Shown here: in pieces, positions 33,806 through 49,094 of the stretch | Layout of the letters: the number at the start of each line of letters is the position of its first letter | Position numbering within the stretch: position 1 is the stretch's first letter | DNA from: an uncultured Oscillospiraceae bacterium | Lineage (GTDB): Bacteria; Bacillota; Clostridia; Oscillospirales; Oscillospiraceae | Direction of reading: 5' to 3' | NCBI GenBank assembly: GCA_947626905.1 | Contig: CANQUE010000012.1 | Location: 1 to 49,094, forward strand | DNA length: 49,094 bases | The notes under the pieces: model-generated | Database searches by the model: none | What the model was told of the DNA's origin: nothing | Seen by the model: only the letters and a program-made list of their open reading frames with translations | Made by a program: the position numbers and the translations under genes

Positions 33806-34566
33806 AGCCCCTGCACCCTCTTTCTCACCGCGGCCCCGAAGCTGAGGACCGCCAACCCGATCAGCTCCGCGATCACCAGCGCCGGGCCCCACCGGCCCAT
33901 GGCCCATTCCGCGCCCGGTGACAGCCACGCCTTGGGATAGACCACATAGAGCGAGGTGAAATACCGCTCGCAAAGGATGATGAGCACATAGTAGAAGATG
34001 AACGGCGCGGCATAGGCGATGTACCGGCTGGCCATGAAGGCGCTCATGGCCAGGCCGAACAGGGACCAGAACCCCCCGGACAGGAAGATGAGCCCGCAGT
34101 TGCGCAAAAGGGTCATGGCGTGCTCCGGCGCCGGCGTGTCCGGGGCCAGGGGCCCCTCCAGAGGCCCGAACAGCGCCGCCGCCAGGCCATAGGCCAGCCA
34201 CAGCCCCAGCACGATCACCGCCCCGCCGGACACCAGGCACCCCGCCGCCTTGCCCAGGATATACCCCCGCTGGCTGGTGCGGTGGATGTACAGCTTCAAA
34301 AAGCCCGTTTTCACGTCGTCCACGAAGCTGGCCGCGTAGGGCAGCGCGCACACGATGGGCAGGCACACGGTGAGCCCGTCCCCCTCCAGGGCCTTCAGGA
34401 TGAAGTCCCCGTGATAGCCGTACGCCAGCGGCTCCTCCGACCGGAATGCCTCCGTCACCCCGTCCATGGAGGTGAGGAACACCACCGCGGCGATGAACGC
34501 CGCGCCCAGCCAGAAGCGGGCGGAGCATACGCTCTGCCGGATGCCGGTCCTGATGGCGTGTTTCAT
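33802..34566 (-). CDS. ABC-2 type permease subunit, first gene of operon
   Basis: The 254-aa membrane protein has about six TM helices; start MKHAIRTGIRQSVCSARFW with an amphipathic N-terminus typical of ABC-2 permeases and the motif FVDDVKTGFLKLYIHRTSQRGYILGK (given in parts: DDVKTGFLKLY, RGYILGK) at the cytoplasmic loop. GGAGGG lies before the ATG. It leads the six-gene run 34566-28930 in which every junction is overlapping or under 20 bases. Confidence 0.82.
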   Translation of the reverse strand: MKHAIRTGIRQSVCSARFWLGAAFIAAVVFLTSMDGVTEAFRSEEPLAYGYHGDFILKALEGDGLTVCLPIVCALPYAASFVDDVKTGFLKLYIHRTSQRGYILGKAAGCLVSGGAVIVLGLWLAYGLAAALFGPLEGPLAPDTPAPEHAMTLLRNCGLIFLSGGFWSLFGLAMSAFMASRYIAYAAPFIFYYVLIILCERYFTSLYVVYPKAWLSPGAEWAMGRWGPALVIAELIGLAVLSFGAAVRKRVQGL

Positions 34567-34591
34567 GCCGCCCTCCTAAATGTAGCGATGC

Positions 34592-35938: not shown

Positions 35939-38131
35939 TTATCTGCTTTTCTCGGTGACCTTGTCCGGCTGGCGGACCGTCTGCCAGTACCGGGCCATTG
36001 CCGCCGACGCGGCGCCGGCGATGGCGGCTGCGATAAACGGACTGGGCCGGGAGAACACCGGTACGCTTTCCAGCGGCAGCAGAAAGCAGAGTCGTGCCAG
36101 CGCGTCGGAACCGATACCCGCCAGCGCCGCAGGGACAACGATCAGGCCCACACAGGCCAGCATCGCGTCCCGGCTGCGACGGGACAGACCGGAGATGAAC
36201 AGGCACAGCTGCCCCACTGCCAGTACTACCATCAACCGCAGGCCATAGTGCCGCGCCAGCGTCGCCCATATCGGCACAGCGGACCGGGAGCCCTGGAAGG
36301 TGTCCATGTTGCAGCTCAGCCCCAGACTGCTAGTGGGCGCTGAAAGGCATGTAAGCGGGCCGTTGGCCCGGACGATGAGCAGCATCTCCGCTCCGTAGAC
36401 CATAGCCCACACCAGCGCGGCCAAAAGTGTTGCCAGCGCCGCCTTTCGCTGCCACAGCTTTTTCCGCCCGCCGGGCGCGGCGAAAAGAAGCGGCCTCACC
36501 TGGGCTTCATTTTCCTGGGCGGCGATAGGAGACACCAGCAGCGTCAGCACCAGCAGCACCAGCAGGGCGTTTGTCCCATGGCGGCCCGCATCGTCCTGGC
36601 TCCACACGGCGTCATAAGGCCCCGAAGGGATGAGCCACGCGCCCTCCGGCGCTTGGGAGAGCTTGCCTATGAGGCGGGTCAGGGAGCCAGCGCGGTCACC
36701 CCCCGTGCAGGCTGTCAGTTCTGCTTCCAAGGAAGTAAGGGTGTCATCCGTGATGGGCCCGGCATATAGCTGCTCGTAGTACTGGTCATACATATCCAGT
36801 GGGTCATACCGGCGCTCCGGCGCTTCTGCCCGGGTCAGCACCAGGACCAGAAGCGCAAGCACCAGTATGCCTCTGCGGCGGATCAGGAGCTTCTCGGCTT
36901 CCAGAGCCAGGAGCCTGCCCCGGGTCATGTACGGATCGATCCTGCGCCGCAGCCGGTCGGCGAAGCGGAGCAGCCGGTTCACCGGCGATACGGGGTGTTT
37001 GAAACGGGCAGCGGCCAGGCACACGCCGGACGCGGCGGCGCACATTGCCGGTAGAAGCGCCAGCACCAGGTCGCGGCCGCTGATGAGCGTGCCAAAAATG
37101 TTCAGATTCAAATACTGCTGAAACACCTGGATATAATCTACATAACTGAACAGGTTGCAGTACCGCAGTATGGCGAAAGCGGAAGCGGGGGGGATGGCGG
37201 TGCAGGCATACTCTACGGCCAGCAGCAGTCCCGCCCCACAGAGCGCCAGGCCCAGATCGGCCACCATGCTCATCACCGCCCAGAGCGCCAGCCCGATGAA
37301 GAATGTGCCCGCCGCCTTGACCGCCAGGTAGAGCATCCAAAACTGTCCTATGGTCAGGGGGAGGGGGACATTTTGGAACATGGGAATGGATTGCAGGAGC
37401 CGTCCCCACTCGTCCAGCCCGCCGTAGAGCCATGCCGACAGCAGGATCTTCGGCCCTAGCACGGCGGCAGTGCCGATGACCGAGCCAGCCAGCAGGATCC
37501 CGATCCGCCGGACAGCCAACCGGACCCGGCCGCAGGGAGCGGCGTAGATCACCGGCCATAGCCCCGCCCGGCGCTCCGCCATGAACGCGGCGCAGATGAC
37601 GACTGCCAGCAGCAGGATGCTGTAATCTGCCCATCGGTCTGCGAATACGTCTGTCACCGCCATATCATGGCCGAAGGTGACGGCGGCACCGCGCATGGAC
37701 GCAAAGTCCTTCGCTGTCTTGACGGCGTTTTTATAGCCGAAGCTGTCCGGATCGGCGAACAGGCTCACGCCCTGGAGCTTCTCTGCGTCCGCCTCGATGC
37801 GGCCCAGATACGGCCCGTAGGAGATGAGGTACAAAAACTGTGGTTCGATGGACCGAATGACGTTGGATCTATATATATCGCCGCCGCTGTCCCAGGTGCC
37901 ATCGCGGATGGACTGGGAAACGCTCTCCAAATAATCCTCGCAGGCAGCGGCGCCCGCCTCCCAGCTGAGGCCGCTAAGCTCGTCCACATTCCGGACATAG
38001 CTGGCTGCCTCTACGCCGAATTGACCGTAGGAACCCCCATGCTGGTAATAGAAGAAAAAGGCGTTCAGTATGACGAGAAGGGTCAGCGCGGACAAAAACG
38101 CCTTGCCCAGCAACACGCGTTTCCACTCCAT
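35939..38131 (-). CDS. Large ABC-2-type permease, two repeated halves
   Basis: The 730-aa membrane protein has an N-terminal TM (about 12-30), an extracytoplasmic loop of about 140 residues, and a block of six TM helices (about 170-390). A second half (from about 410, GILVLALLVLVL) repeats the pattern TM - external loop (SLEAELTACTGGDRAGSLTR) - TM block. This two-half design resembles permeases of bacteriocin or antimicrobial-peptide export and self-immunity systems. It starts right after the ATPase stop, with one base between. GC is somewhat below the sugar locus. Substrate is unknown. Confidence 0.8.
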   Translation of the reverse strand: MEWKRVLLGKAFLSALTLLVILNAFFFYYQHGGSYGQFGVEAASYVRNVDELSGLSWEAGAAACEDYLESVSQSIRDGTWDSGGDIYRSNVIRSIEPQFLYLISYGPYLGRIEADAEKLQGVSLFADPDSFGYKNAVKTAKDFASMRGAAVTFGHDMAVTDVFADRWADYSILLLAVVICAAFMAERRAGLWPVIYAAPCGRVRLAVRRIGILLAGSVIGTAAVLGPKILLSAWLYGGLDEWGRLLQSIPMFQNVPLPLTIGQFWMLYLAVKAAGTFFIGLALWAVMSMVADLGLALCGAGLLLAVEYACTAIPPASAFAILRYCNLFSYVDYIQVFQQYLNLNIFGTLISGRDLVLALLPAMCAAASGVCLAAARFKHPVSPVNRLLRFADRLRRRIDPYMTRGRLLALEAEKLLIRRRGILVLALLVLVLTRAEAPERRYDPLDMYDQYYEQLYAGPITDDTLTSLEAELTACTGGDRAGSLTRLIGKLSQAPEGAWLIPSGPYDAVWSQDDAGRHGTNALLVLLVLTLLVSPIAAQENEAQVRPLLFAAPGGRKKLWQRKAALATLLAALVWAMVYGAEMLLIVRANGPLTCLSAPTSSLGLSCNMDTFQGSRSAVPIWATLARHYGLRLMVVLAVGQLCLFISGLSRRSRDAMLACVGLIVVPAALAGIGSDALARLCFLLPLESVPVFSRPSPFIAAAIAGAASAAMARYWQTVRQPDKVTEKSR

Positions 38132-38132
38132 A

Positions 38133-38849
38133 TCAGTCCGCTCCCAGGTAGTACATGTATACGTCTTCCAGATCCTTTCCCGATGCCCGGGCGATCAGCT
38201 CCTCAGGCCTGCCGTGGGTCACCAGCGTTCCCTCCTTCATCAGCAGCACATCTTTGGCGATGGACTCGATGTCGGAAACGATGTGTGTGGTGAGGAAGAC
38301 GATCCTATCCTTTGCCAGATCGGAGATGTATTGCCGCAGCCGCAACCGCTCCTTAGGGTCCAGGCCCGCCGTGGGCTCGTCAAGGATTAGTACCTTCGGC
38401 TCTCCCAGCAGAGCTTGGGCCAGCATCACCCGCTGGCGCATGCCGCCAGAGAAGCCGCCCACTTTCCGATGGGCCGCTTCAGATAGATTCACCAGCTCCA
38501 GCAGATCTTCGATCTGCCTTCTGGCCTCTCTGGCGGGCAAGCCTTTGATCTGGGCCATGTACCGCAGGAACGCCCGAGCGGAAAAATCGGCGTACATCCC
38601 CTGCTCTTGAGGCATGTATCCCACCAGGGCCCGAAAGAAGGCACCCAGCGTCAGAATGTCCGTGCCGTTCCAAAGAATGTCCCCCTCATCCCGCTTCACA
38701 TTGTCGGTGATGAGGTTCATCAGGGTGCTCTTCCCCGCGCCGTTAGCCCCCAGTATGCCGTAGATGCCAGGCGTAAACGTATAAGAAAAACCATTCAGCG
38801 CGAGTTTGGCACCATATCGTTTGGTAAGGTTTTTTATCGTAAGCTCCAT
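38133..38849 (-). CDS. ABC exporter ATPase
   Basis: The 238-aa product has Walker A GANGAGKST near 35-42, signature SGGMRQRVMLAQALL near 130, Walker B VLILDEPTAGLD and switch His in LTTHIVSD. The LSGGM signature fits peptide and antibiotic exporters of the ABC-2 group. It is coupled to the 730-aa permease downstream and follows the lipoprotein gene by 12 bases. Confidence 0.9.
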   Translation of the reverse strand: MELTIKNLTKRYGAKLALNGFSYTFTPGIYGILGANGAGKSTLMNLITDNVKRDEGDILWNGTDILTLGAFFRALVGYMPQEQGMYADFSARAFLRYMAQIKGLPAREARRQIEDLLELVNLSEAAHRKVGGFSGGMRQRVMLAQALLGEPKVLILDEPTAGLDPKERLRLRQYISDLAKDRIVFLTTHIVSDIESIAKDVLLMKEGTLVTHGRPEELIARASGKDLEDVYMYYLGAD

Positions 38850-38861
38850 AGAAAGAACCTC

Positions 38862-40109
38862 TCACGCGCCCACGTCGATCTCTGTCCAGTCCACATCGGG
38901 CATATTGAACTCGCGGATCTCTATGTGCCCTGTGCCGAAATCAGCCTTGTCCACATAGTAGCGAGGGACGGAAGGGCTGCGGGGGCTGGCGCAGCAAAAG
39001 ATGAGCCGCTCCGGCGTTTCCCCGATGATGTAGTTGTCGTCGCCGCCAAAGGTCACCTCGCCCAGCGCTTCAAAGGCCCAGTTATAGAAATAATAGGTAA
39101 CGCACACTTCGCCGGTATCGGCGGCCAAACGCTCGTATCGCACTGCCAGATGATCTGGAAAACAGGTCAGCTTTATGCGTTCGCCCTCTGTCGGACGCAG
39201 ACCGGTATCCAGTACCGGTGTTTCCATCCCCGAGGCATACGTCAGGCGATAGACCACCCCGTCTTTTATGCTCCATGCCTCTTCCGCGCCGAAATAGCCA
39301 AAACTGCTGCCGTCTACATTGGCCAGATGTTCTGTTTCGTTGGTGTCTGGGTCCCATCGGTCAACCGAGCCGTCATATGTCAGCAAATAGGTATCCCCAT
39401 CCTGGAGAATTCCGCCGTCGTGGGGCAGGCGGATGAGGCGGTCTGCAGGGTCATTCAATTTCCGATAAAAGTTCATGTATACGTCGTCCCCGCTTGCGTC
39501 CAGTTTTTTTGCAGACACTGAGAGCACATCACCGTACAAAATGGGAGTGCCGGTGAATTGCAGGCCAGTTTCATCGGATTCTTGCTCTGCCAGGTCCAGT
39601 GCTACTGTCTGATTGCTACCGTCCAAATCCATCCGGGTCACCTTTGGCTTAAAAAACTCTGGTGTCCACGTCACGTAGAGATGAGCGTCGTTGTACCGAA
39701 TGCTCTGTCCGGCATGGAATACGGCGTTGCAGTCTTCATTATCATGGGAACAGTCTGGCCGGCCGCACAGCATGATGAGGGTATCTGAACCATGGTCGCC
39801 ATAGAAGACGATGCTGTCGGTACCCGACAAACTGCCGCTGCCCGACCAGACGCCGCTCAGGATATAGTAGCCGCTGTCCGTGCAATCGAACCCTCCGGCT
39901 ATCCCCCAAAGTCCTTGCCTAGCCAGGCCCATGCGACGATCCGGGATAGGGCCGTTTCCGGCAAGCCATGGATAATCAGGCGTTTTCTGCTCCGAGGACA
40001 GCGCTGCCGAGGTTTCGTCGGGTGCTTTCTCACCGTCGGCACAGGCGGAGAGAAGGACCGACAGCGCCAAGATCAATACCAGAAGATGCAGTATTCTTCT
40101 TCTTTTCAT
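38862..40109 (-). CDS. Lipoprotein of unknown function, probable beta-propeller
   Basis: The 415-aa product has lipobox LLSAC (Cys23). The rest shows repeated short strand pairs with Asp-Gly turns (YYILSGVWSGSG, LYVTWTPEFF, TYLLTYDGSVDRWDPDTNE, EAWSIKDGVVYRLTY) and a Cys-rich stretch LCGRPDCSHDNEDC near 113-126, as in lipoproteins of the DUF5050-like propeller type in Clostridia. GAGGAG precedes the ATG. It is first in the tight ABC gene group, so it probably serves the ATPase and permease as external subunit. Confidence 0.78.
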   Translation of the reverse strand: MKRRRILHLLVLILALSVLLSACADGEKAPDETSAALSSEQKTPDYPWLAGNGPIPDRRMGLARQGLWGIAGGFDCTDSGYYILSGVWSGSGSLSGTDSIVFYGDHGSDTLIMLCGRPDCSHDNEDCNAVFHAGQSIRYNDAHLYVTWTPEFFKPKVTRMDLDGSNQTVALDLAEQESDETGLQFTGTPILYGDVLSVSAKKLDASGDDVYMNFYRKLNDPADRLIRLPHDGGILQDGDTYLLTYDGSVDRWDPDTNETEHLANVDGSSFGYFGAEEAWSIKDGVVYRLTYASGMETPVLDTGLRPTEGERIKLTCFPDHLAVRYERLAADTGEVCVTYYFYNWAFEALGEVTFGGDDNYIIGETPERLIFCCASPRSPSVPRYYVDKADFGTGHIEIREFNMPDVDWTEIDVGA

Positions 40110-40144
40110 GGGAGGCTCCTCGCAAGAAATACCATACTATTAGG

Positions 40145-40172
40145 TGTGCGCCACCTAAGGTGGTGGCGCACA
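40145..40172 (-). terminator. Hairpin between the secreted-protein and lipoprotein genes
   Basis: A perfect 11-bp stem TGTGCGCCACC (40145-40155) with 40162-40172 and a TAAGGT loop. On the minus strand it is followed by CCTAATAG, without a U run, so it is either a weak terminator or an mRNA processing/stability element that would set different levels of the flanking genes. Confidence 0.5.
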
Positions 40173-40195
40173 AAGGACAGGAACTTTTATTAAGG

Positions 40196-40609
40196 TCAAG
40201 GCCGCGCTTCCAATGGACGGGTCGCTATACCCTGTACACTGCAGTTTGCGGTGGCGTAGGTAATCGTACCGTATGCATGTTCTTCAGATACGTAATTGTT
40301 CGCATGAACTGATAGGCCTGTCCCCGTGAGAAGATTTGACCCCGTGTTATAGTATATACCGGTATCAGTTTTAACAGTTGCTGTAACACTTGCATACAAG
40401 GTGGCATTGTGGGCGGTCGATAGAGCAGCAGAAGCGATAGTAGTGCTGACAAAAAGACTAGCGCTCCAGTTGATGGTCAGCCCCTCGTGAGTGATGGTGC
40501 CGCTGGTTGAGTCAGATCCCATTGTCAAAGCCGAGGCGGGAACGGACAATAGGGAAAAGGAAAAGACTAAAACCAAAACCAGTGTTAAAAATCGAAAGCT
40601 CCGTTTCAT
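40196..40609 (-). CDS. Small secreted Ser/Thr/Ala-rich protein
   Basis: The 137-aa product has a clear signal peptide (charged MKRSFR, hydrophobic core, cleavage after ASA near 28) and a mature part of about 109 residues rich in Ser, Thr, Ala and short beta strands (INWSASLFVSTTIASAAL, YASVTATVKTDTGIYY). One Cys only. AAGGAGG lies before the ATG. I do not recognise the family. Its place between an agr cassette and an ABC exporter suggests a quorum-controlled secreted factor, but Sec export alone would suffice. Confidence 0.75.
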   Translation of the reverse strand: MKRSFRFLTLVLVLVFSFSLLSVPASALTMGSDSTSGTITHEGLTINWSASLFVSTTIASAALSTAHNATLYASVTATVKTDTGIYYNTGSNLLTGTGLSVHANNYVSEEHAYGTITYATANCSVQGIATRPLEARP

Positions 40610-40725
40610 ATATAACCTCCTTATCTTATGTGTTTATACATTTTAGCTGTTTTTACTGCTGATGGGTAAAGTTACAGCGTGTGCAGTTGCTTGTTACCAG
40701 TTTTTTAAGAATATCTTGCATGTCC

Positions 40726-42072
40726 TCAATAGCCTAGATTCATGTCAATGATGGTGCCGTCTACGGCGTTGATGGTCACCAGGGGGATCGCCGGCGATGC
40801 CGACGTCATGCCGGCCGGTGTCCAGGAGAACGCGTAGGAGGGGACCAGATAAAACTCGCTGCTGTTGTCCCTGACGCGGATGCGGCTGTACCCCAGCTCT
40901 ACCCGATCCACAGTGACCTCTGCGTGCTCCTCCGCGGAGAAGCCCTTGGCGTCTAAAAGCCGCAGATAGGAGCATAGTTTTTCAAAAACCGTTTCAAACG
41001 GAAGAAGAACTGCTGTTTCCCCGTCAGGATCCACGTCCAGTGGCGCAGAGAACTCAAAAGCTGTCCAACTCTGGCCGCTCATTCTTATCCTGATGGAGGT
41101 GCCGTCATAGTTGATGGCATATGCGTTCTCTGGGTCAGAGGCCAGGAGTTCTGCGTTCAGAAGGGGGAGGCCATGAAAGACTGGTCGTGCATAAGCGTTC
41201 GCCGTATAGAGGCCCTGCTCTGACTGCCTGATCTCTAGCGAGGAAACCTCCCACTCCCCAAAGCCCAGGCTGTCCAGGATGGAACGGGCGCGGGCCATGC
41301 AATCGTCCGCCTCGAGCGGATGGGAGGAATAGAGCTCCTCGTCCGACTGGGAGATATCGTCCGCGTAGGCGTGGATGATGCTCTTCAGATAATCGCCCGT
41401 GCGGACGTATACATTGTATTTGTATTGGATGCCGTCGGATGCGGCCTTCGCCATGATGTTGTCCCACCCGTCGTCTTTCGCCGTTTCGTCATAATAGGAC
41501 GTGGGGTGGAAGATCCAGTCACAGGGCGTGTCTTGGACTGTGTCCGGCGCGTCGGGATACAGCTGCTCGTAGGTTTCGATCTGCTGCTCGTATATCTGTG
41601 TCACATAGGCGATGGCTTCTTCGTTTCCGTCATAGTATGTTTCCAGTGCCTCCCGATCGCCGAGAAGCGCCTTTAGCCTCAGGATCTCCTGTTCTATCTC
41701 CAGCTTGCTCATCTGGCGGGTGTTTTCATAGAAGGCGGTGCCGGGCAGCAGGGCCTGTGCGATCCGCTTGCCCTCCGTGGCAGTGAACAGATGTGGCGTG
41801 GCATGGAGGACGGGCAACTCTTCAGGCGTGGCGGCCGGCTCCAGCGAAACCGTGAACACCACGTCGCCTCCCGCGCTCGTCACCGTGTCGGACCAGACCC
41901 GGGCGGAACTCTCCGTCTGGGGCGCGTCCTTGTTTTCCGCGGCGGCGGCCGCCGGCGCTGTCTGGGCGTCCTCCCCCGTCTTGCTCGTGACATACGCCTT
42001 CTGGGGCGTGGCCTGACAGGCGCACGATAGGCAGAGGATCGTGACGGCTGCAGCGATGATCCGTCTATACAC
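40726..42072 (-). CDS. Lipoprotein, DUF6034-like
   Basis: GTG start at 42072 with AGAGGT 7 bases upstream. The 448-aa product has a hydrophobic leader with a Cys cluster (LCLSCAC, 13-19) fitting a lipoprotein, an Ala-rich linker, a coiled Glu-rich part (about 115-160, KLEIEQEILRLKALLGD) and a C-terminal domain ending IPLVTINAVDGTIIDMNLGY-like strands, the signature closing strand of DUF6034/YycI-type folds. I am not certain of the DUF number. Function unknown; probably an envelope-attached regulatory or sensory protein. Lies between the secreted protein and the broken peptidoglycan-binding gene. Confidence 0.72.
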   Translation of the reverse strand: MYRRIIAAAVTILCLSCACQATPQKAYVTSKTGEDAQTAPAAAAAENKDAPQTESSARVWSDTVTSAGGDVVFTVSLEPAATPEELPVLHATPHLFTATEGKRIAQALLPGTAFYENTRQMSKLEIEQEILRLKALLGDREALETYYDGNEEAIAYVTQIYEQQIETYEQLYPDAPDTVQDTPCDWIFHPTSYYDETAKDDGWDNIMAKAASDGIQYKYNVYVRTGDYLKSIIHAYADDISQSDEELYSSHPLEADDCMARARSILDSLGFGEWEVSSLEIRQSEQGLYTANAYARPVFHGLPLLNAELLASDPENAYAINYDGTSIRIRMSGQSWTAFEFSAPLDVDPDGETAVLLPFETVFEKLCSYLRLLDAKGFSAEEHAEVTVDRVELGYSRIRVRDNSSEFYLVPSYAFSWTPAGMTSASPAIPLVTINAVDGTIIDMNLGY

Positions 42073-42161
42073 GGGTCGTACCTCTTTTCGCTTCGCTCAC
42101 TAGTATGCGGATGCTAAAACGGCATTCCATCAGATAAGTGCTTTAAACTACCAGATAACCG

Positions 42162-42692
42162 TCAAGAAATGTTTCTATATCCATTACCTGCCGTAGCATT
42201 CGTGTTACTCCTGGAACAATACGGATAGTACTTGAATAACCCCCAAAAGAAGCCCATAACCACATATCCCTTAATAGAATATAGAGAATTTCCATTGGTG
42301 GTTGTATCAGAGTAGTTGCCAAGAGCGTTTGCAAGGGCTTTCCACGTGTTCGATCCGACAACTCCACCGGGCGTAAGGCCATTATGTTTTTGGAATACCA
42401 TCACTGCTTCGGCGGTCTTCTCGCCAAATATAGCATCAACGGTAATTGCATTTTCACCAAGACCTCTCATGATCCAATCCCGCGTTTCTTCGCTGTACGC
42501 ACACATTGCACGCTGGATAAATCCGACATATCCATCGGCGTAACCTGTCATCCGCAACGGATATGCAGAAACAGCTTATCTTGCTGCATCAAGGGGCTGG
42601 ATAGAACGAGGGGAATCAGGGGCTGCATATGCTTGCAGGGGCATGCATACACACAAGCAGATAACCAACACTAATGAAAGAATACGTTTCAT
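42162..42692 (-). pseudogene. Secreted peptidoglycan-binding protein interrupted by an in-frame TAA
   Basis: From the ATG at 42692 (GGGAGGGG ahead) a signal peptide is read (MKRILSLVLVICL, likely cut after AYA), then APDSPRSIQPLDAAR and a TAA at 42576-42578. The same frame goes on without shift as AVSAYPLRMTGYADG into a peptidoglycan-binding type 1 domain (VDAIFGEKTAEAVMVFQ, GVVGSNTWKAL). Both halves are otherwise well formed, so a single nonsense change is the simplest reading. A restart at the TTG of 42555-42557 would give a protein without export signal. The C-terminal ~40 residues are unusual and a second frame also stays open there, so a further lesion cannot be excluded. Confidence 0.72.
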
Positions 42693-42767
42693 GATTAGGC
42701 CCCTCCCATAACAACTTATTTTAAAGTCAATTGTTATACTCCGGTGTTTTTGCACCGTTAGATTTTA

Positions 42768-42977
42768 TCAGAGAAGAACAGTTCTATGAAATCTAAGCTC
42801 TTGAATTGGAAACATCTTTTGCGCTTCGTCTTCTGGATAATATGCTGGCATTATAAACGGCAGAGTCTTTCTGATGCAACAAAAAGTGCACATAACAGTA
42901 TTATTACTGCATGAAGTTACATCAGACCATGTTTGTTCCGTATAGTAGTCAATAAATAAATCAGGGTTTTTGGGCAT
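42768..42977 (-). CDS. Candidate 69-aa Cys-rich small protein starting inside agrD
   Basis: Its ATG lies within the last codons of agrD (17-base overlap). Product MPKNPDLFIDYYTEQTWSDV continues with a Cys cluster (CSNNTVMC, FCC). There is no independent ribosome site, so it would rely on coupling to agrD. In an AT-rich region a 69-codon frame is not strong evidence on its own. No family recognised. Confidence 0.35.
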   Translation of the reverse strand: MPKNPDLFIDYYTEQTWSDVTSCSNNTVMCTFCCIRKTLPFIMPAYYPEDEAQKMFPIQELRFHRTVLL

Positions 42978-43122
42978 CTGTTGTCCGACTTGTTTTTGGC
43001 CTCTTTGGCTGATAAAAAAAGATTCCGCAAACAGGCGGCCACTCTTCTTTTTCCTTCTGAATCATACCATTTGCTACTTTCCGCAGGAGGCTGTTGAAAT
43101 CTTTCTTTGCTGCGCTATGCAT
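42961..43122 (-). CDS. agrD: AgrD-type cyclic peptide autoinducer precursor
   Basis: The ATG at 43122 lies 6-7 bases after AGGGAGA and inside the end of agrB (8-base overlap). The 53-aa product has the three AgrD parts: an amphipathic N-terminal helix (HSAAKKDFNSLLRKVANGM), a signal core around Cys32 (VCGIFF) and a C-terminal tail YQPKRPKT with the Pro-x-x-Pro spacing typical of clostridial AgrD. By analogy the autoinducer would be a thiolactone closed between Cys32 and Phe36, a five-residue ring CGIFF, with AgrB cutting before Tyr37. The tail after the ring is longer and more basic (ends DAQKP) than the acidic tails of staphylococci. Confidence 0.88.
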   Translation of the reverse strand: MHSAAKKDFNSLLRKVANGMIQKEKEEWPPVCGIFFYQPKRPKTSRTTDAQKP

Positions 43123-43687
43123 TTTTATCTCTCCCTTCAATGATATATGCAAGACCTAGCATTCCGGAAGCTAGGATAATGCCAAAACAAATTCCGTTTT
43201 CAATTCGGTGTTCGGCGAGAATAGAAGAAACAACTAATATCAGTAGTAAGATAGTTAAATGCAGTCTGGAGTGATATTTACATGAAACGTATTCTACATC
43301 CGACAAGCCCATATTTGAATGGTTGAAAGGGGAAAGAAACCAAACAATCAATGAACTTGGTAAAACCAGAAACACAATCATTAATAATGGATATTCCCTT
43401 TTTGCAATACTTAATAATACTGCTTCTGCAAAAACAGATAAAATAAAACACCCAACAAGAGTTTTTGCATGGAAACCATTCATATATTTTCTCAAATAGT
43501 AAAATGTTCCAAGAAATGAAACTGTTGTCAAGGCGTCTGAAATAATCATCCCAATCACAAAGAGAGGAATCAGGAATAAGTTGTTAACTATACTTTTGCG
43601 AAGATGATATTCAAGTATAGGAATGTCAGCTTTTGAGATAATGTCATGATTAATACAATAAGACATGGCAAGTTTTAACATTTTCAT
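43115..43687 (-). CDS. agrB: AgrB-type autoinducer-processing membrane protease
   Basis: The 190-aa integral membrane protein has about six TM segments and the AgrB catalytic pair His73 and Cys80 in GFHAKTLVGC, with the same seven-residue spacing as staphylococcal AgrB. It cuts the C-terminal tail of AgrD and closes the thiolactone. Two in-frame ATGs (43687, 43681) are possible; AAGGA is better placed for the second. About 120 bases separate it from agrC, and it overlaps agrD. The gene is clearly AT-richer than the sugar locus. Confidence 0.92.
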   Translation of the reverse strand: MKMLKLAMSYCINHDIISKADIPILEYHLRKSIVNNLFLIPLFVIGMIISDALTTVSFLGTFYYLRKYMNGFHAKTLVGCFILSVFAEAVLLSIAKREYPLLMIVFLVLPSSLIVWFLSPFNHSNMGLSDVEYVSCKYHSRLHLTILLLILVVSSILAEHRIENGICFGIILASGMLGLAYIIEGRDKNA

Positions 43688-43810
43688 TTCCTTGTATTAT
43701 CCATTAATTATAGATAATGATACACGATTATGCCGCGATTCGCCTTATTATTTGCACAAACTGCAATTTTCTGAACATGAAACGACATGCTTCTGCCCGG
43801 GAGGAGGTGT

Positions 43811-45112
43811 TTACCGACCAGCGCTGTCAAATAGATGCATTGGCGTTTCAGAAACAAAACTAAACCATCCGTCCTGGTAATTGAAAGCATACTCTGAGCC
43901 CAATCCATCAAGCATGTGTGTCACATTGAGAAGACCGTAGCCGTGCTTGTCCTTGTTTGCTTTTGTGGTCGTTGGTCTGCCGCCGACGAAGGATACCGGA
44001 TCAGAGGTGTTTCTTATGCTTAGTAGGAGTTTTTCCTGAAGGACCAGCGAAACTTTGATCATCCGCTCGCCTTTGAACTGCGCACAGGCCTCAATGGCGT
44101 TGTCCAGAAGGTTTGATAACACGACTACGAGCTTTTCTGTGGGCAGGTCCAATGTGGAGAGATCATTTACCGTGATTTGCATATCGATCCCCGCTTCCTG
44201 GGCGAGCTGGTATTTCTGATTCAGGATCGCGTCGACAACAGGGTGATGGGAGTTGACGGCAAATACTCTGACGGTATGTTGACTTTTCAATTCCTGAATA
44301 TATTGAGCGGCGGTGCCGTATTGCTCTTTTTCCAGCAGTGCGCCGATAGCGTTTAGATGGTGGAGATAATCATGGGAAGCAGCGCGCTGAGCGCGGTAAC
44401 TCTTTTCCAGGCTGAGAAAGCTCTGCATTTGGATGTCGATTTGCTGATCCAACAGCGCGGCGCGCTGTGCTATTTTTTCGCTTTTTTCGATCTGATTGAT
44501 TAAACACATCATTCCGAGGTTTAAGAAAGCGATCGATAAAGTGATACCGATCGCTCTGAAGGACATGTCACTCTCATATCGATAATTGAGGAATAATATG
44601 ACCAGTAGAACATAGCTTATCGCGGGAAAAACAAGAATCATGGCGAGCCACCGTATCTGTAGATGTTTATCAGTGGTCTTTGAAAAAACACGATAAACCA
44701 TCCAGGACAGTAGCATAGAAGACGATTTGCTTACTGTCCCGGCGGAGATATAGGTGTTTTTTCGTTGCAAAAGTGCAGCTGCGTTAATATGAAGAAGCCC
44801 GCTGCAGGAATACATGATGCCGGCGTCCAAAACGGCGAGAAGTACACCGCACATGATGACAGCCATGACGCGTCGTTGCCATAGTCCGTCATAACAGGCC
44901 AGAGAAACGATATAATAAACAACGGGCGTGAGTAACATGGGGGGGATCATACCAATTGGATGCGATGAATATAGGTAGATCACGACCAATGCCAGCAACA
45001 TGATCATATAGGAAAACTTTGTCCAATGTTTTCTTTGCAAAAAGCACTCGCAAAAGAAATAGGCACAGATCAACTCCATCGCGATCCAGCAGAAGCTTAC
45101 AATCTCAGCCAT
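43811..45112 (-). CDS. agrC: AgrC-type sensor histidine kinase
   Basis: The 433-aa product has a six-helix membrane sensor (about 1-205), a coiled linker (209-240), a kinase H-box with His247 in AASHDYLHHL of the SpoOB/AgrC class, and a GHKL ATPase domain with N-box LSNLLDNAIEAC and G-box HGYGLLNV. It would sense the AgrD-derived peptide and phosphorylate AgrA. GGGAG is ahead of the ATG, which overlaps the agrA end by 8 bases. All key residues are present, so it should be active. Confidence 0.92.
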   Translation of the reverse strand: MAEIVSFCWIAMELICAYFFCECFLQRKHWTKFSYMIMLLALVVIYLYSSHPIGMIPPMLLTPVVYYIVSLACYDGLWQRRVMAVIMCGVLLAVLDAGIMYSCSGLLHINAAALLQRKNTYISAGTVSKSSSMLLSWMVYRVFSKTTDKHLQIRWLAMILVFPAISYVLLVILFLNYRYESDMSFRAIGITLSIAFLNLGMMCLINQIEKSEKIAQRAALLDQQIDIQMQSFLSLEKSYRAQRAASHDYLHHLNAIGALLEKEQYGTAAQYIQELKSQHTVRVFAVNSHHPVVDAILNQKYQLAQEAGIDMQITVNDLSTLDLPTEKLVVVLSNLLDNAIEACAQFKGERMIKVSLVLQEKLLLSIRNTSDPVSFVGGRPTTTKANKDKHGYGLLNVTHMLDGLGSEYAFNYQDGWFSFVSETPMHLFDSAGR

Positions 45113-45842
45113 TGATCACTGCTCCCTTCCAGAGGAGGTACCTCGTTTTTTGCTCTGCATATTTGGCGGCGCTAGCTCGAAGGGTCATTCCGTTATCCAG
45201 CTGTGCCTGATGGCACGTATATTTTTGGATGTGCGCCATGTTCACAAGGTAGCTTTTATGGATGCGGAGAAAGCCTTTGCCTGAGAGCTCTGTTTCCATC
45301 TCGCCTATGGAGGAATTGAATGTGTATACGCCGATCTTTTTGCTGTTAGGCAACTGCGTAAAGACCTTTATCTTATGCAACTGCGATTCTATGTAGAGGA
45401 TGTTCTTTACAAATATATTGATGATTTCGCCGTTGATTTGAAATCGAATGGTTTCGCTCTCGGATTGAAAGATGCTGACGGCTTGGCCCAGATACAACGC
45501 CAGCTTCCGGTCTAGGCTGCTTTTCAGCAGGTATCGGAACGCACGCACTTCATAGCCTTCCGGAGCATACTCGACATAGTTTGTCAGGAAGATGATGACA
45601 GCGTCATCCCTGAATGCCCGGAGCCGCCTGGCGATGCCTATGCCGTTATACTGCTTGTCGGCAAAGTCTATATCCAATATGGCGATGTCGGTCTGGGACA
45701 GGATGGCGTCGCCGATCTCCTCCATCCCAGAAAAGGAATGGAGCCTGACCCGTAGATCGTTTTTTGAGAGGATCTCGCTGACTCGCGATCGGAGTTGTTC
45801 TAGGAAGATGGCATCATCGTCGCACAACAGTACCGTGTACAT
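45105..45842 (-). CDS. agrA: AgrA-type LytTR response regulator
   Basis: The ATG at 45842 (MYTVLLCDDD) has AAAGGTG upstream; an extension to 45911 lacks one. The 245-aa product has a receiver domain (acidic pair DDD at 8-10, phospho-Asp near 57 in AILDIDF, Lys in LLKSS near 106) and a LytTR DNA-binding domain from about 135 (ILYIESQLHKIKVFT, FLRIHKSYLVNM). It would bind promoter repeats to control target genes and usually the agr operon itself. It is first in the minus-strand run agrA-agrC-agrB-agrD. Confidence 0.92.
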   Translation of the reverse strand: MYTVLLCDDDAIFLEQLRSRVSEILSKNDLRVRLHSFSGMEEIGDAILSQTDIAILDIDFADKQYNGIGIARRLRAFRDDAVIIFLTNYVEYAPEGYEVRAFRYLLKSSLDRKLALYLGQAVSIFQSESETIRFQINGEIINIFVKNILYIESQLHKIKVFTQLPNSKKIGVYTFNSSIGEMETELSGKGFLRIHKSYLVNMAHIQKYTCHQAQLDNGMTLRASAAKYAEQKTRYLLWKGAVING

Positions 45843-45956
45843 ACCTGTCAACACCTTTGCTTTCTGGAAGGATTGTATCTCTTGGGTTATATTTGGGTTG
45901 TTTTCATACATGGTACATTATATACCTTGCAATTCAATTAAAATTTATAAACACCA

Positions 45957-45989
45957 GTATAATTATACCATATAACGAAGAAAAAACAA
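45957..45989 (-). promoter_or_regulatory. Promoter of the agr operon with overlapping palindrome
   Basis: On the minus strand -35 TTGTTT (45984-45989), a 16-base spacer and -10 TATAAT (45962-45967). The -10 lies inside a perfect 12-bp palindrome GTATAATTATAC (45957-45968), a plausible operator for the divergent XRE regulator. The rest of 45843-46046 is AT-rich, with a second near-palindrome around 45911-45926 (GGTACATTATATACC) but no gene. Confidence 0.6.
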
Positions 45990-46046
45990 CTATATTGCGA
46001 TATGACGTGATAGAATATCCATATATAACATTTTGGAGTCTTTCAT

Positions 46047-46406
46047 ATGCATGACATTGGCGCTCGCCTCAGGGAACTGAGAAGGAGAAAATGCTGGACT
46101 CAAAAACAACTTGCCGTGTATTTGCACAAAAGCACATCTGCAGTAGGTAGTTATGAGCAGAATGTTCAAACACCACCGACTGATGTGCTTATATCCTTAG
46201 CAGAACTCTATCATATCTCTGTTGATGAATTACTGGGACTAGAGAACAATGAAGCATTTACCGTAAAGGACTTAAATGACAATCAAAAGGCTGCCCTTGA
46301 ATTAATCCTCGACGAGTTTCACAACCCAACCACCAAGAACAATGAGCTGACTCCAGCACACATGAACATTTTGAACGCATTGATAAGAGCTTTAATTGAT
46401 AGGTGA
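46047..46406 (+). CDS. XRE-family transcriptional regulator
   Basis: The 119-aa product has an N-terminal XRE helix-turn-helix (about 5-62: LRELRRRKCWTQKQLAVYLHKS ... VGSYEQNVQTPP, in parts) and a helical C-terminal half (65-119) that may dimerise. GGAG stands 8 bases before the ATG. It is divergent from agrA across about 200 bases and is the only regulator of this type here, so control of the agr promoter or of the adjacent conjugative element is likely. Ligand unknown. Confidence 0.88.
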   Translation: MHDIGARLRELRRRKCWTQKQLAVYLHKSTSAVGSYEQNVQTPPTDVLISLAELYHISVDELLGLENNEAFTVKDLNDNQKAALELILDEFHNPTTKNNELTPAHMNILNALIRALIDR

Positions 46407-46438
46407 CCCATATTGATGTCTTGCCAGGAGTAATATGT

Positions 46439-46468
46439 ACCCAGCCGCTCATAGCGGCTGGGTGTTTT
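46439..46468 (+). terminator. Terminator after the XRE regulator
   Basis: An 11-bp stem ACCCAGCCGCT (46439-46449) with 46453-46463 and CAT loop, followed by GTTTTAATAA. Confidence 0.85.
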
Positions 46469-48425
46469 AATAAGCGGGGACGCCGTAGCCGCAGATTTCG
46501 TAGTATCCCACGGTGTACTGCCGCTGCTTACAGGAGTTGGTCATGTTGCCCTCCACGGTGTAGACGACGCCGCCCTCGCACCGTTCCACGATGCCCACAT
46601 GGTCGGCAAGGCCGTCTATTCCGTCGCTGGCCCAATCCAGAAAGATGATGTCGCCGGGGTTCGGGAGGTAGTTCCGGTCGGCCCACTGGCCCCGGTCCTT
46701 GAACCACTGTTCCCCGGTGGGACACCCGGCGAACTTGGGAATGATGCCGGCCTCGATATAGCCGCACTGCTCGGCGCACCAACTGACGAAGCAGGCGCAC
46801 CATTCCACCCGGCTGGGGAAGCCGTACCATGACCAATAGGGCTGGCCGCCCACGTTGCCCACCTGGGACAGCGCCACGGCCACAATATCATCATCGCCTA
46901 TGCCGATGCCGAACAGGACGGTGTTCCAGAGAGTGCGGTACTCATCGGACAGCAGCTCCTCCATCTTCTCCCGCTGGTCCGCGTCAAAATGGAACTGATC
47001 GGCCATTTCCTCCGGCGTCTTATGGGTGACGGTGATATAGAGCGTGACCGTCTCGACGGTGGTCTGGATTTCGATAGGGTTGCCGTTCTCATCCGTGCCG
47101 GAGGTCGTTTCCACATGGGAGGCTGTGGCGGTGTTGTATGAAATGACGTTCATCTCCCAGAAAATATTCTCCAAGATGTCCCGCTTTCGCTCGGTCATGG
47201 AGGCGACCTCCTGGCCGTCCGTGGGGTCGGTGTTGGTCTTGACGGCGTAGACGGCCAGCACCTCCGGCCAAGTGGCGCGGGAGCCGGACATCTCCAGTTC
47301 ATCGTGTGCGACGGTGTTCTGGATGCCGTCGATCTGATCCTGGTAGTCCTGATTGATCTCCCGGATGGCGCTTCGCATGGTGAGGCCGGAGCCGGTATCC
47401 TCCCCGGAGAAGAAAATGCCAAAGACGGAGCCGACGAGCAGACCAATCAGGCAAATCACGACGACAATGAGAAATGCCACGCTGCCTCCTGCGGCCAAAG
47501 TCGTTATCAGAGCCTTGGTTGCGGCGAGAATGGCCCGGATGGAGGAGATCACGGCTTTGGCCGCCGCTTTTGCGGTCACGGCTGCCTTTTGTGCCGCGAC
47601 GCGGGCGGCGTGGGCTGTGACCTGGGCAGTCCTGGCGGCGGCCTGGGCCGATCTCTGCGTTATCTTTGCCGTCTGCTCGGCGGTCTTGATACCGGCTTTA
47701 ACGGAGCGATCCGCAGTCTTGACCGCATACCGCTCCGTCTTGGTTTTCACAGCCCGCCCGGAGGCGGTGACAGTCCGGGTCGCGGCTCTTTCGGTCTGCC
47801 CCGCTGTCCGGGCGGCGGAGCGGCGGGAGATGGGGCGGCCCTGGATGTTGCTGCTCCCCCGGATGGGACTGGCTGAAGGAGCCACCTGTCCGGGGGAGCT
47901 TGCGGGTGCTGGTGCTGATATAGGAGAACCGGGAGGCACCGCCTCGCTGGACGGGGTGGGCTTCGGGATGGTTTGCCCCGGTGCTTTTCCCGCCTGGGTC
48001 TGCCGCCGAAGCTGCTCCACCTGCCGCCTGTGCCGGAAGCTCTCCTGCGCTGCCTCTGGGGACTGCACGGACGGGCTGGAATACTCCGCCTGAACGCTGG
48101 AACGGGTCTTGGGCGCGTTGGCCTCCTGCTGGGCCTCCCGCTGCCGCCGTTCCTGGCGACGTTCTTTCACAGCGGCGACGGCCCTGTGACCGGCGTTGTC
48201 AAGCTGGTGTACGCCCTCATGGGAGGCAACTTCCACGCTGCCCGTGATACGGTCGGAGGCGTATTCCTCCGGGGACGCCTGGGCAGGCTGGGCGGTATCT
48301 GCGGCCCGTTCCTTGGTGCGGATGTAGGCTTGCTTCATCCGCTGGCCTGCCAGCGCGGACCGGTCCAGGGTCTTTATCGACCCTCTGACCACATCCCGCG
48401 TTTTGATGTCGGGCACGGTCCACAC
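46467..48425 (-). CDS. CD1108-family conjugative element protein, CHAP peptidoglycan hydrolase
   Basis: The 652-aa product has a long charged N-terminal part (start MWTVPDIKTRDVVRGSIKTL) and an Ala/Lys/Thr-rich helical stretch (about 215-300, TAKITQRSAQAAARTAQVTA). A TM follows (about 315-340, FLIVVVICLIGLLVGSVFG), then an extracytoplasmic part ending in a CHAP domain (from about 510: VGNVGGQPYWSWYG, catalytic Cys in EWCACFVSWCAEQCG, His in DHVGIVE). It digests peptidoglycan so the mating channel can pass the cell wall. It lies 6 bases after the VirB4 gene. Length and domain order are normal for the family. Confidence 0.92.
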   Translation of the reverse strand: MWTVPDIKTRDVVRGSIKTLDRSALAGQRMKQAYIRTKERAADTAQPAQASPEEYASDRITGSVEVASHEGVHQLDNAGHRAVAAVKERRQERRQREAQQEANAPKTRSSVQAEYSSPSVQSPEAAQESFRHRRQVEQLRRQTQAGKAPGQTIPKPTPSSEAVPPGSPISAPAPASSPGQVAPSASPIRGSSNIQGRPISRRSAARTAGQTERAATRTVTASGRAVKTKTERYAVKTADRSVKAGIKTAEQTAKITQRSAQAAARTAQVTAHAARVAAQKAAVTAKAAAKAVISSIRAILAATKALITTLAAGGSVAFLIVVVICLIGLLVGSVFGIFFSGEDTGSGLTMRSAIREINQDYQDQIDGIQNTVAHDELEMSGSRATWPEVLAVYAVKTNTDPTDGQEVASMTERKRDILENIFWEMNVISYNTATASHVETTSGTDENGNPIEIQTTVETVTLYITVTHKTPEEMADQFHFDADQREKMEELLSDEYRTLWNTVLFGIGIGDDDIVAVALSQVGNVGGQPYWSWYGFPSRVEWCACFVSWCAEQCGYIEAGIIPKFAGCPTGEQWFKDRGQWADRNYLPNPGDIIFLDWASDGIDGLADHVGIVERCEGGVVYTVEGNMTNSCKQRQYTVGYYEICGYGVPAY

Positions 48426-48431
48426 CTCCCA

Positions 48432-49094
48432 TCAGTTGAACGGGTCATAGTCGTCAAAGGCGAAATAGACCTTGCCGGCGTCCTTTTTGGCCGGAGCCAG
48501 CTTCTCACCGCCGAACACGCCCTCGCCGGGTTTCGTGGTCATGAGCTTATAGAGGCGGGTGTCCTTGGGGAAGCGGTTCACAAAGGGCACCAGCGCGCCG
48601 CCGTACTTGATGAGGCCGCACCCGGCCTCGGCGTTGGTCACATAGCTCATCTGCTCATTGGAGATGTTCAGCAGACGGGCCAGCTTTTCGCGGTCGGAGG
48701 CCGCCTGGTTGAGCATGATAACGCACTCGGAGTTGGACAGCATGGTACTGGCCTGCACGGAGTCCAGCAGATATTCCACGTTCTGCGTGATGGCGGTGGG
48801 GTAGGCGTTCCTCTTTCGGAACTGCCGCCACGCGGAGTTGAAAAACGATCCGCTGTACTCGTTCTCAAAGACCTTGTGGAACTCGTCGATATAGACATGG
48901 GTGCGCTTGCCCTTGTGCCAGTTGAGGGTGACGCGGTTGAGGATGGTGTCGGTGATGACCAGCAGACCAGCAGGCTTCAACTGTTCCCCCAGGTCGTGGA
49001 TGTCGAACACCAAAATGCGCTTGTTGAGGTCAACGGTGCTTTCGTGGCCGAACACATCCAGCGAACCGGTGGTGTAAAGCTCCAGGGCCAGGGC
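48432..49094 (-). CDS. VirB4/TrsE-type conjugal transfer ATPase (C-terminal part, cut by window edge)
   Basis: The frame is open to the window edge; only the last ~220 residues are present. Seen are the Walker B-like THVYIDEFHKVFENE, the arginine-finger region NAYPTAITQNVEYLLDS, and SNSECVIMLNQAASDREKL, all typical of VirB4-family proteins of Tn916/Tn1549 elements. It powers assembly of the type IV secretion channel at the membrane. Walker A must lie beyond the edge. The GTG at 49055 is an internal codon, not the start. Confidence 0.9.
   Translation of the reverse strand, partial: ALALELYTTGSLDVFGHESTVDLNKRILVFDIHDLGEQLKPAGLLVITDTILNRVTLNWHKGKRTHVYIDEFHKVFENEYSGSFFNSAWRQFRKRNAYPTAITQNVEYLLDSVQASTMLSNSECVIMLNQAASDREKLARLLNISNEQMSYVTNAEAGCGLIKYGGALVPFVNRFPKDTRLYKLMTTKPGEGVFGGEKLAPAKKDAGKVYFAFDDYDPFN

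Follow-up and report, generated by a model that had tools for sequence, protein, structure and literature searches.

The locus considered here raises a question about its wiring: in an agr-type quorum-sensing cassette whose regulator and kinase genes precede the genes for the signal, does signal production simply follow transcription of the regulator, or does it have a switch of its own, and what else does the circuit govern? The cassette lies at 42961-45842, on the minus strand, of a window of 49,094 bases that constitutes the whole of contig C12 in the draft genome (2.15 Mb in 87 contigs) of an uncultured Oscillospiraceae bacterium. All readings offered below are drawn from sequence, and from draft genomes. 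We consider it likely that the locus encodes an autoinducing agr-type quorum-sensing circuit, probably carried as cargo by a conjugative element, which governs the adjacent operon.

In the circuit that we envision, the regulator and kinase would be made from a predicted promoter, P1, perhaps under the control of a divergently encoded XRE-family regulator. AgrB would cut AgrD and export it as a thiolactone with the predicted ring CGIFF, the kinase would sense this thiolactone and phosphorylate the regulator, and the regulator would bind direct repeats with 21-bp spacing, activating P2 to yield more AgrB and AgrD in a positive loop, and activating P3 to express a peptidoglycan-binding remnant, a DUF6034 protein, a lipoprotein and an ABC transporter (Table 1).

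The four signalling genes and their order in the family

The frames for the LytTR regulator, GHKL kinase, AgrB and AgrD are all open and intact, and the features by which the earlier note had recognised a complete four-part cassette (kinase His247, AgrB His73/Cys80, AgrD Cys32 and the LytTR domain of the regulator) are all in place. The regulator carries DDD and Asp57 and, with a LytTR match of 8e-15, is of the type found in agr systems; an alternative upstream in-frame ATG at 45911 would extend it to 268 residues. Searching PDB with it returned weak matches to ComE and other regulators, and a PDB search with the AgrB alignment returned no match at E 0.1. Hydropathy of the kinase indicates about 6-7 hydrophobic segments (seven listed, two of them overlapping), as befits a polytopic GHKL kinase, and its sensor half is less conserved than its catalytic half in 7 of 7 comparisons. 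The His and Cys of AgrB are invariant across the 10 sequences of alignment A2, as expected of an AgrB-family peptidase. The kinase start overlaps the regulator end and the agrD start overlaps the agrB end, with a gap of 123 nt (43688-43810) between the two pairs.

AgrD falls below the cut-off of its profile; it is called nonetheless because agrD begins before agrB has ended and because the pattern WPPxCxxxxYQPxRP recurs behind AgrB in nine related loci (L033, L034, L035, L036, L037, L038, L039, L040 and L136). Among these relatives WPPxC and YQPxRP are kept and the ring letters vary. By analogy with Listeria, the thiolactone ring is predicted to be Cys-Gly-Ile-Phe-Phe.

In Staphylococcus aureus, the agr genes are laid out as agrBDCA and accompanied by RNAIII. 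The window shares with that system homologues of AgrB, AgrD, AgrC and AgrA with their key residues and, presumably, the positive loop. It differs in its order, A-C-B-D, in having separate predicted promoters for the regulator/kinase and signal genes, and in an AgrD whose leader is charged, has no predicted hydrophobic segment and places WPP before the Cys. Since an Rfam search of 40000-49094 gave no match at E 0.1, no known effector RNA is found in that part of the window.

The earlier note had regarded this order as unusual, a view that a census of the family does not uphold. Searching 400 genomes with PF04647 (E up to 1e-6) yielded 37 AgrB loci in 33 genomes, whose layouts, judged by eye and tallied by hand, were regulator-kinase-AgrB in 18 cases, AgrB divergent from regulator-kinase in six, regulator-kinase-AgrD-AgrB in two, kinase-regulator-AgrB in one, AgrD-AgrB-regulator-kinase in one and incomplete in nine. 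Because regulator-kinase-AgrB is the commonest layout and the staphylococcal B-D-C-A order occurs in none of the 28 loci with a readable layout, the order in the window is ordinary in its family. In five of the 18 regulator-kinase-AgrB loci (L041, L096, L099, L109, L111) AgrD was unrecognised by the patterns used. The agr3 locus of Clostridioides difficile likewise has agrC, agrB and agrD in synteny, according to the available part of its description (PMC5225093).

Predicted operators before the signal and output genes

Aligning the non-coding gaps of the window with those of three relatives (G216, G423 and G409) revealed imperfect direct repeats with 21-bp spacing before agrB and again behind agrD. 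A matrix built from six sites in the three other genomes, with the window excluded, was used to scan the 49-kb window and placed P2 first (19.8 bits) and P3 second (14.3 bits). In 60 dinucleotide shuffles of the window the maximum averaged 10.9 bits and reached 19.4 at its highest, so P2 stands on its score, and P3 needs its position and -10 element in support: the same place is occupied in G216, G423, G409 and a fourth relative, L136, and a fitting -10 follows. The third hit (42564-42595, 14.2 bits) was rejected as an operator, having no fitting -10 (3/6). In L136, held out from the matrix, a looser pattern matches twice and no more, at the sites corresponding to P2 and P3; all four related cassettes have both predicted operators. 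Contig C16 of G216 carries two more, at 28.2 and 21.9 bits, before two lipoprotein/permease/ABC operons. Across the window's genome, the pattern with up to one mismatch has 10 matches (P2 and P3 included) against three for a reversed control. Four of the other eight lie within 3.3 kb on contig C26 (3832-7105).

A -10 element with at least five of the six letters of TATAAT lies 29-31 nt downstream of 12 of the 13 operators predicted in six genomes (eight of the 13 having first been chosen by eye from the alignment), compared with an average of 0.51 operators, and at most 4, in 2000 shuffles of the downstream DNA; the five operators identified afterwards (L136 and G216 contributing two each, G358 one) all have one. 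VirR/RgaR-type LytTR operators consist of two direct repeats with 21-bp spacing, set at a constant distance from a -10, and the predicted sites show this pattern. The RgaR operator is described, in the accessible portion of the source, as two direct repeats 21 bp apart upstream of the promoter, with critical G-51 and G-72 (PMC10602386), and the third base of the predicted half-sites would fall near -51 and -72 if +1 is placed seven bases past the end of the -10. As far as that portion goes, RgaR activates agrB1D1 among other targets, but it is an orphan regulator in a system described as not autoregulatory, whereas the predicted operator of the window sits inside the agr locus itself. P1 has its own candidate input: the perfect palindrome GTATAATTATAC at 45957-45968 covers its -10 and might be bound by the divergent XRE regulator.

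An operator before the signal operon, as autoinduction would require, is thus predicted in the window and conserved in five cassettes. The earlier note had proposed that the order of the genes ties signal level to read-through from the agrA promoter; with a predicted operator and its own -10 between kinase and agrB, in the window and in four relatives, production of the signal probably depends on more than read-through from agrA.

A test free of any motif looked for direct repeats of period 20-22 where the signal operon begins, in a stretch of about 260 nt, and covered 37 loci (34 from the census plus L036, L037 and L136; L093, L102 and L115 were excluded). At least 10 of 12 letters matched in 13 of the 21 regulator-kinase-AgrB loci, whereas other periods gave this in 4 of 147 tests, and p was <=0.05 in 11 of the 21. 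The same threshold was reached in two of six divergent loci, none of four in which AgrB stands without regulator and kinase, and three of six loci of the remaining types.

The letters of the repeats appear to be private to each type of locus. Further agr loci exist in the genus, two in G216 (contigs C1 and C2) and one in G358 (C37), with regulators 29-35% identical to the window type and with repeats (GCACTTTGCAC, ACACTTTGCAT and CCGTTATTCAGTG, respectively) unlike those of the window; none of the three exceeds 12.6 bits with the window-type matrix. Each of the three has its own predicted operator before agrB and a second copy before an adjacent operon, the second sites scoring 24-26 of 30 where eight shuffles each give at most 21. 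In C1 and C2 these precede divergent peptidoglycan-binding, DUF6034 and ABC genes (with two extra genes between in C2), and in C37 the second site is upstream of an adjacent divergent operon with permease and ABC genes. Ten repeat-bearing loci were scanned for second operators (L039 and L042 are among those outside this set); of the controls, L136 had its known second site recovered (25; shuffles at most 21), and the known sites of L033 scored 22, within the shuffles (at most 23) of this cruder score. Because the predicted peptide and operator letters differ from one agr type to the next in the genus, co-resident circuits could be insulated from each other.

Table 1. Features of the window discussed in the text, from the contig end downwards; functions and regulatory sites are predictions from sequence
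Feature	Position	Strand	Evidence
VirB4-type conjugation ATPase, C-terminal part, cut by contig end	48432..49055	-	TraG P-loop 2e-8
CHAP-domain protein, taken as conjugation-module member	46467..48425	-	CHAP 7e-14
XRE-family (Cro/C1-type) regulator, divergent	46047..46406	+	HTH_3 4e-10
P1, predicted agrA-agrC promoter, TTGTTT-16-TATAAT	45962..45989	-	Region conserved in alignment with three relatives
AgrA-type LytTR response regulator, 245 aa	45105..45842	-	Pfam LytTR 8e-15, Response_reg 8e-8; 60-91% identity in five relatives
AgrC-type sensor kinase, 433 aa	43811..45112	-	GHKL HATPase_c_5 1.2e-16; His247 (ASHDYLHH)
P2, predicted LytTR operator before agrBD	43753..43784	-	-10 TATCAT at 43717-43722; 19.8 bits
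AgrB peptidase/transporter, 190 aa	43115..43687	-	PF04647 1.7e-20; His73/Cys80
AgrD pro-peptide, 53 aa, Cys32	42961..43122	-	WPPVC-GIFF-YQPKRP; TIGR04223 16 bits, cut-off 19
P3, predicted LytTR operator before downstream operon, behind agrD	42887..42918	-	-10 TATAAT at 42850-42855; 14.3 bits
First output gene, signal peptide and peptidoglycan-binding domain	42162..42692	-	PG_binding_1 1e-12 on 3' piece
DUF6034 lipoprotein-like protein	40726..42072	-	PF19499 7e-24
Predicted lipoprotein, no family	38862..40109	-	No Pfam match; 79% in G358
ABC transporter ATPase	38133..38849	-	ABC_tran 2e-31
Large membrane protein, presumably the permease paired with the ABC ATPase	35939..38131	-	No Pfam match; 94% in G358

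Relatives, output genes and the mobile context

Searching genome contigs with the regulator alignment gave seven loci, five of them at 61-91% identity, and the seven, all of them named, are all from Oscillospiraceae, in agreement with the earlier note, which had a complete agr-type cassette in a genome of Oscillospiraceae type. The five close records among the named ones are bins of uncultured Oscillospiraceae that carry the label Lapin, taken here to mean rabbit samples. The cassette with its divergent XRE gene recurs in four genomes (G216 contig C16, G423, G409 and L136) with regulators 60-73% identical to that of the window, so regulator, kinase, AgrB and AgrD are not a chance set. AgrB occurs in five of the 35 genomes of the genus, and a DNA search with regulator and kinase finds six of the 35, one of them through a match of just 40 bp. 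Searching genome contigs with AgrB alone gave no confirmed hit; with the window's AgrB as query no close relative appeared in viral contigs, plasmids or phages, and its regulator gave none in viral contigs. The AgrB proteins of two other loci gave only distant matches, L108 to two unannotated phage records (27-31%) and L033 to three plasmids (24-25%).

The closest relative lacks the signal genes. Contig C35 of G358 encodes a regulator 91% identical to that of the window, with no agrB, agrD, peptidoglycan-binding gene or local XRE gene; its match to the window breaks off 29 bp ahead of agrB and picks up again shortly before the DUF6034 gene, such that the P2 operator and its -10 are kept, now before DUF6034, lipoprotein, ABC and permease genes. 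The one AgrB that was found in G358 is that of the C37 locus, and it goes with a different ring. Since more distant relatives have agrB and agrD in that position, we read their absence as a secondary loss that would leave a receiver without a sender. Between G358 and the window dN is 0.073 and dS 0.714 for the kinase (dN/dS about 0.10), and dN is 0.050 and dS 0.323 for the regulator; part of this divergence may predate the loss of the signal genes. The earlier note had held that AgrB or AgrC lesions in close relatives would speak against a working system: G358 does lack agrB (and agrD), but it keeps regulator and kinase, and the lesion that exists is on our reading a secondary one.

Behind P3 lie the presumed output genes. 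In G409 the CHAP, XRE, agr, DUF6034 and ABC genes follow one another on one contig in the window's order, which in general supports that order, the join at 34577 (see below) excepted. The word DUF6034 occurs in no paper of the literature searched. Elsewhere in the genus, L081, L085, L087 and L088 have six or seven DUF6034 genes in tandem (one partial in L087) upstream of a conserved ABC block.

On the other side of the cassette, the transfer machinery seen in the window consists of the CHAP gene and the VirB4 C-terminus. The VirB4 piece matches the NCBIfam CD1110-family VirB4 at 9e-83 and 279 bits, below the full-length cut-off of 325 because just positions 577-752 are present. The CHAP end in G409 is the same as that in the window (29/29 residues). 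Contig C16 of G216 shows more: an integrase (1e-16) and a weakly matched Xis lie about 6 kb beyond agrD, and CHAP, a VirB4-type ATPase, VirD4 (type IV secretion system coupling protein, 6e-58) and a MobA/VirD2-type relaxase (5e-39) lie on the other side of agr, so that the cassette stands between integrase and transfer apparatus of what qualifies as an integrative conjugative element. G216 has a second copy of the element, which matches the first at 95-97% identity until CHAP ends and then differs, and the element in G358 is 91% identical over CHAP-VirB4 and has no agr there. The window is like conjugative elements with a CD1110-family VirB4 in its VirB4 C-terminus and CHAP protein (G216 also in integrase, the weak Xis-like match, VirD4 and relaxase), and unlike them in bearing an agr cassette after the CHAP gene. 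In L136 there are serine recombinases about 4 kb away from the cassette and, on its opposite side, a Mutator-type transposase. Separately, L034 (11711-14174) and L136 (1-2464, including the serine recombinases) share DNA that is 83% identical, beside two agr types.

Between the window and G358, DNA identity is 86% for the cassette, 91% for the element, 85% for the ABC block and 83% for the flank; with no clear excess in the cassette, a recent transfer between the two is not supported by this measure, and mobility rests on context and not on identity. That context makes the cassette the probable cargo of a conjugative element. Contig C3 of the window's genome encodes an integrase with 44% identity to the one in G216.

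Competing explanations and what the circuit may mean

Several other explanations deserve consideration. It is quite unlikely that the genes form a single operon read from the agrA promoter, with signal output following agrA-agrC read-through: they are colinear and close, the P1 region upstream is conserved and some read-through is likely, yet a conserved predicted operator with a -10 fills the gap before agrB in five cassettes, and the period 20-22 repeats before agrB in 13 of 21 loci stand against very few in control-period tests. It also seems unlikely, if somewhat less so, that the kinase senses something else, such as a substrate of the ABC exporter, with agrBD as just one target. G358 retains regulator, kinase, operator and exporter without agrBD, its kinase under low dN/dS, and C. 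difficile offers a precedent for such an arrangement in which, in the part of the paper available, RgaS does not sense AgrD1 though RgaR activates agrB1D1 (PMC10602386). Set against this are the position of AgrB directly after the kinase in five cassettes and 18 of 37 family loci, and the lesser conservation of the sensor half, which is expected of a receptor tracking a variable peptide.

There is little likelihood that the locus is a decaying mobile-element remnant without present function. The broken first output gene, the want of other element backbone in the genome and the patchy distribution of AgrB among congeners (5 of 35) would fit such decay, but not four open signalling genes, conserved P1-P3 and the low dN/dS of regulator and kinase against G358. 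Control of conjugative transfer itself by the circuit, that is, quorum-controlled conjugation, appears equally improbable. The cassette does lie inside the element in G216, beside CHAP/VirB4 in the window and beside CHAP in G409, with a divergent XRE regulator, but the four strong operator hits on G216 C16 all precede agrBD or cargo operons, and elsewhere on C16 the best listed hit, among the five best per piece, is 14.3 bits, bar one of 14.9 bits that overlaps P3.

It is important to stress that, besides the RgaS precedent and the choice of operators by eye, a number of observations weigh against an autoinducing, element-borne circuit. The P3 score lies inside the shuffle range (14.3 versus a maximum of 19.4) and barely exceeds that of the third hit. 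P2 of the window fails the motif-free repeat test (8/12, p=0.65), as does G409 (p=0.17), and five of eight other-type loci show no clear second private operator within the DNA scanned. The peptidoglycan-binding gene, first after P3, has an in-frame stop at 42576-42578. The 77 bp at 34501-34577 recur unchanged where contig C41 of this genome begins, and C41 continues into several DUF6034 genes as in congeners; with this assembly branch point at 34577, linkage to its left is unsure. Finally, a DNA search with the 12.6-kb G216 backbone matched, in the window's genome, the window alone, so that the element there may be truncated, divergent or lost in binning.

The nearest described systems include those of C. 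difficile, as far as the available parts of their descriptions go. The agr2 locus of strain 027 is likewise a complete four-gene set, with membrane and ABC genes downstream (PMC2768977); its order is known through locus tags, and the description at hand contains neither operator analysis nor conjugative context. The agr3 locus, on phage phiCDHM1 (PMC3901668) and also a possible mobile locus (PMC5225093), shares with the window the kinase-AgrB-AgrD order and carriage on mobile DNA, but has no AgrA. Judged by title and the start of the abstract, no paper among the matches listed places agr inside an Oscillospiraceae conjugative element. By its parts, then, this is an agr system; what is new is its wiring, in which receiver, signal and output would each have a promoter of their own, together with predicted operators private to each type, a mobile context and a natural sender-less form.

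It is suggested in a 2023 paper that the Agr systems of clostridia generally lack autoregulation (PMC10602386). Autoregulation, the opposite of that suggestion, becomes directly testable with exact sites, because an operator of the right type precedes agrBD in five cassettes and repeats are present in 13 of 21 loci. The differing operator letters of three agr loci within one genome make these loci candidate natural orthogonal circuits. More tentatively, and with somewhat less than even confidence, we suggest that agr in this gut lineage may consist of mobile, insulated circuits, each with its own peptide, receptor, operator code, self-amplification and adjacent surface/exporter module, and that the sender-less ones may listen to the peptide of their neighbours; the sender-less relative makes such eavesdropping testable between sequenced gut genomes.

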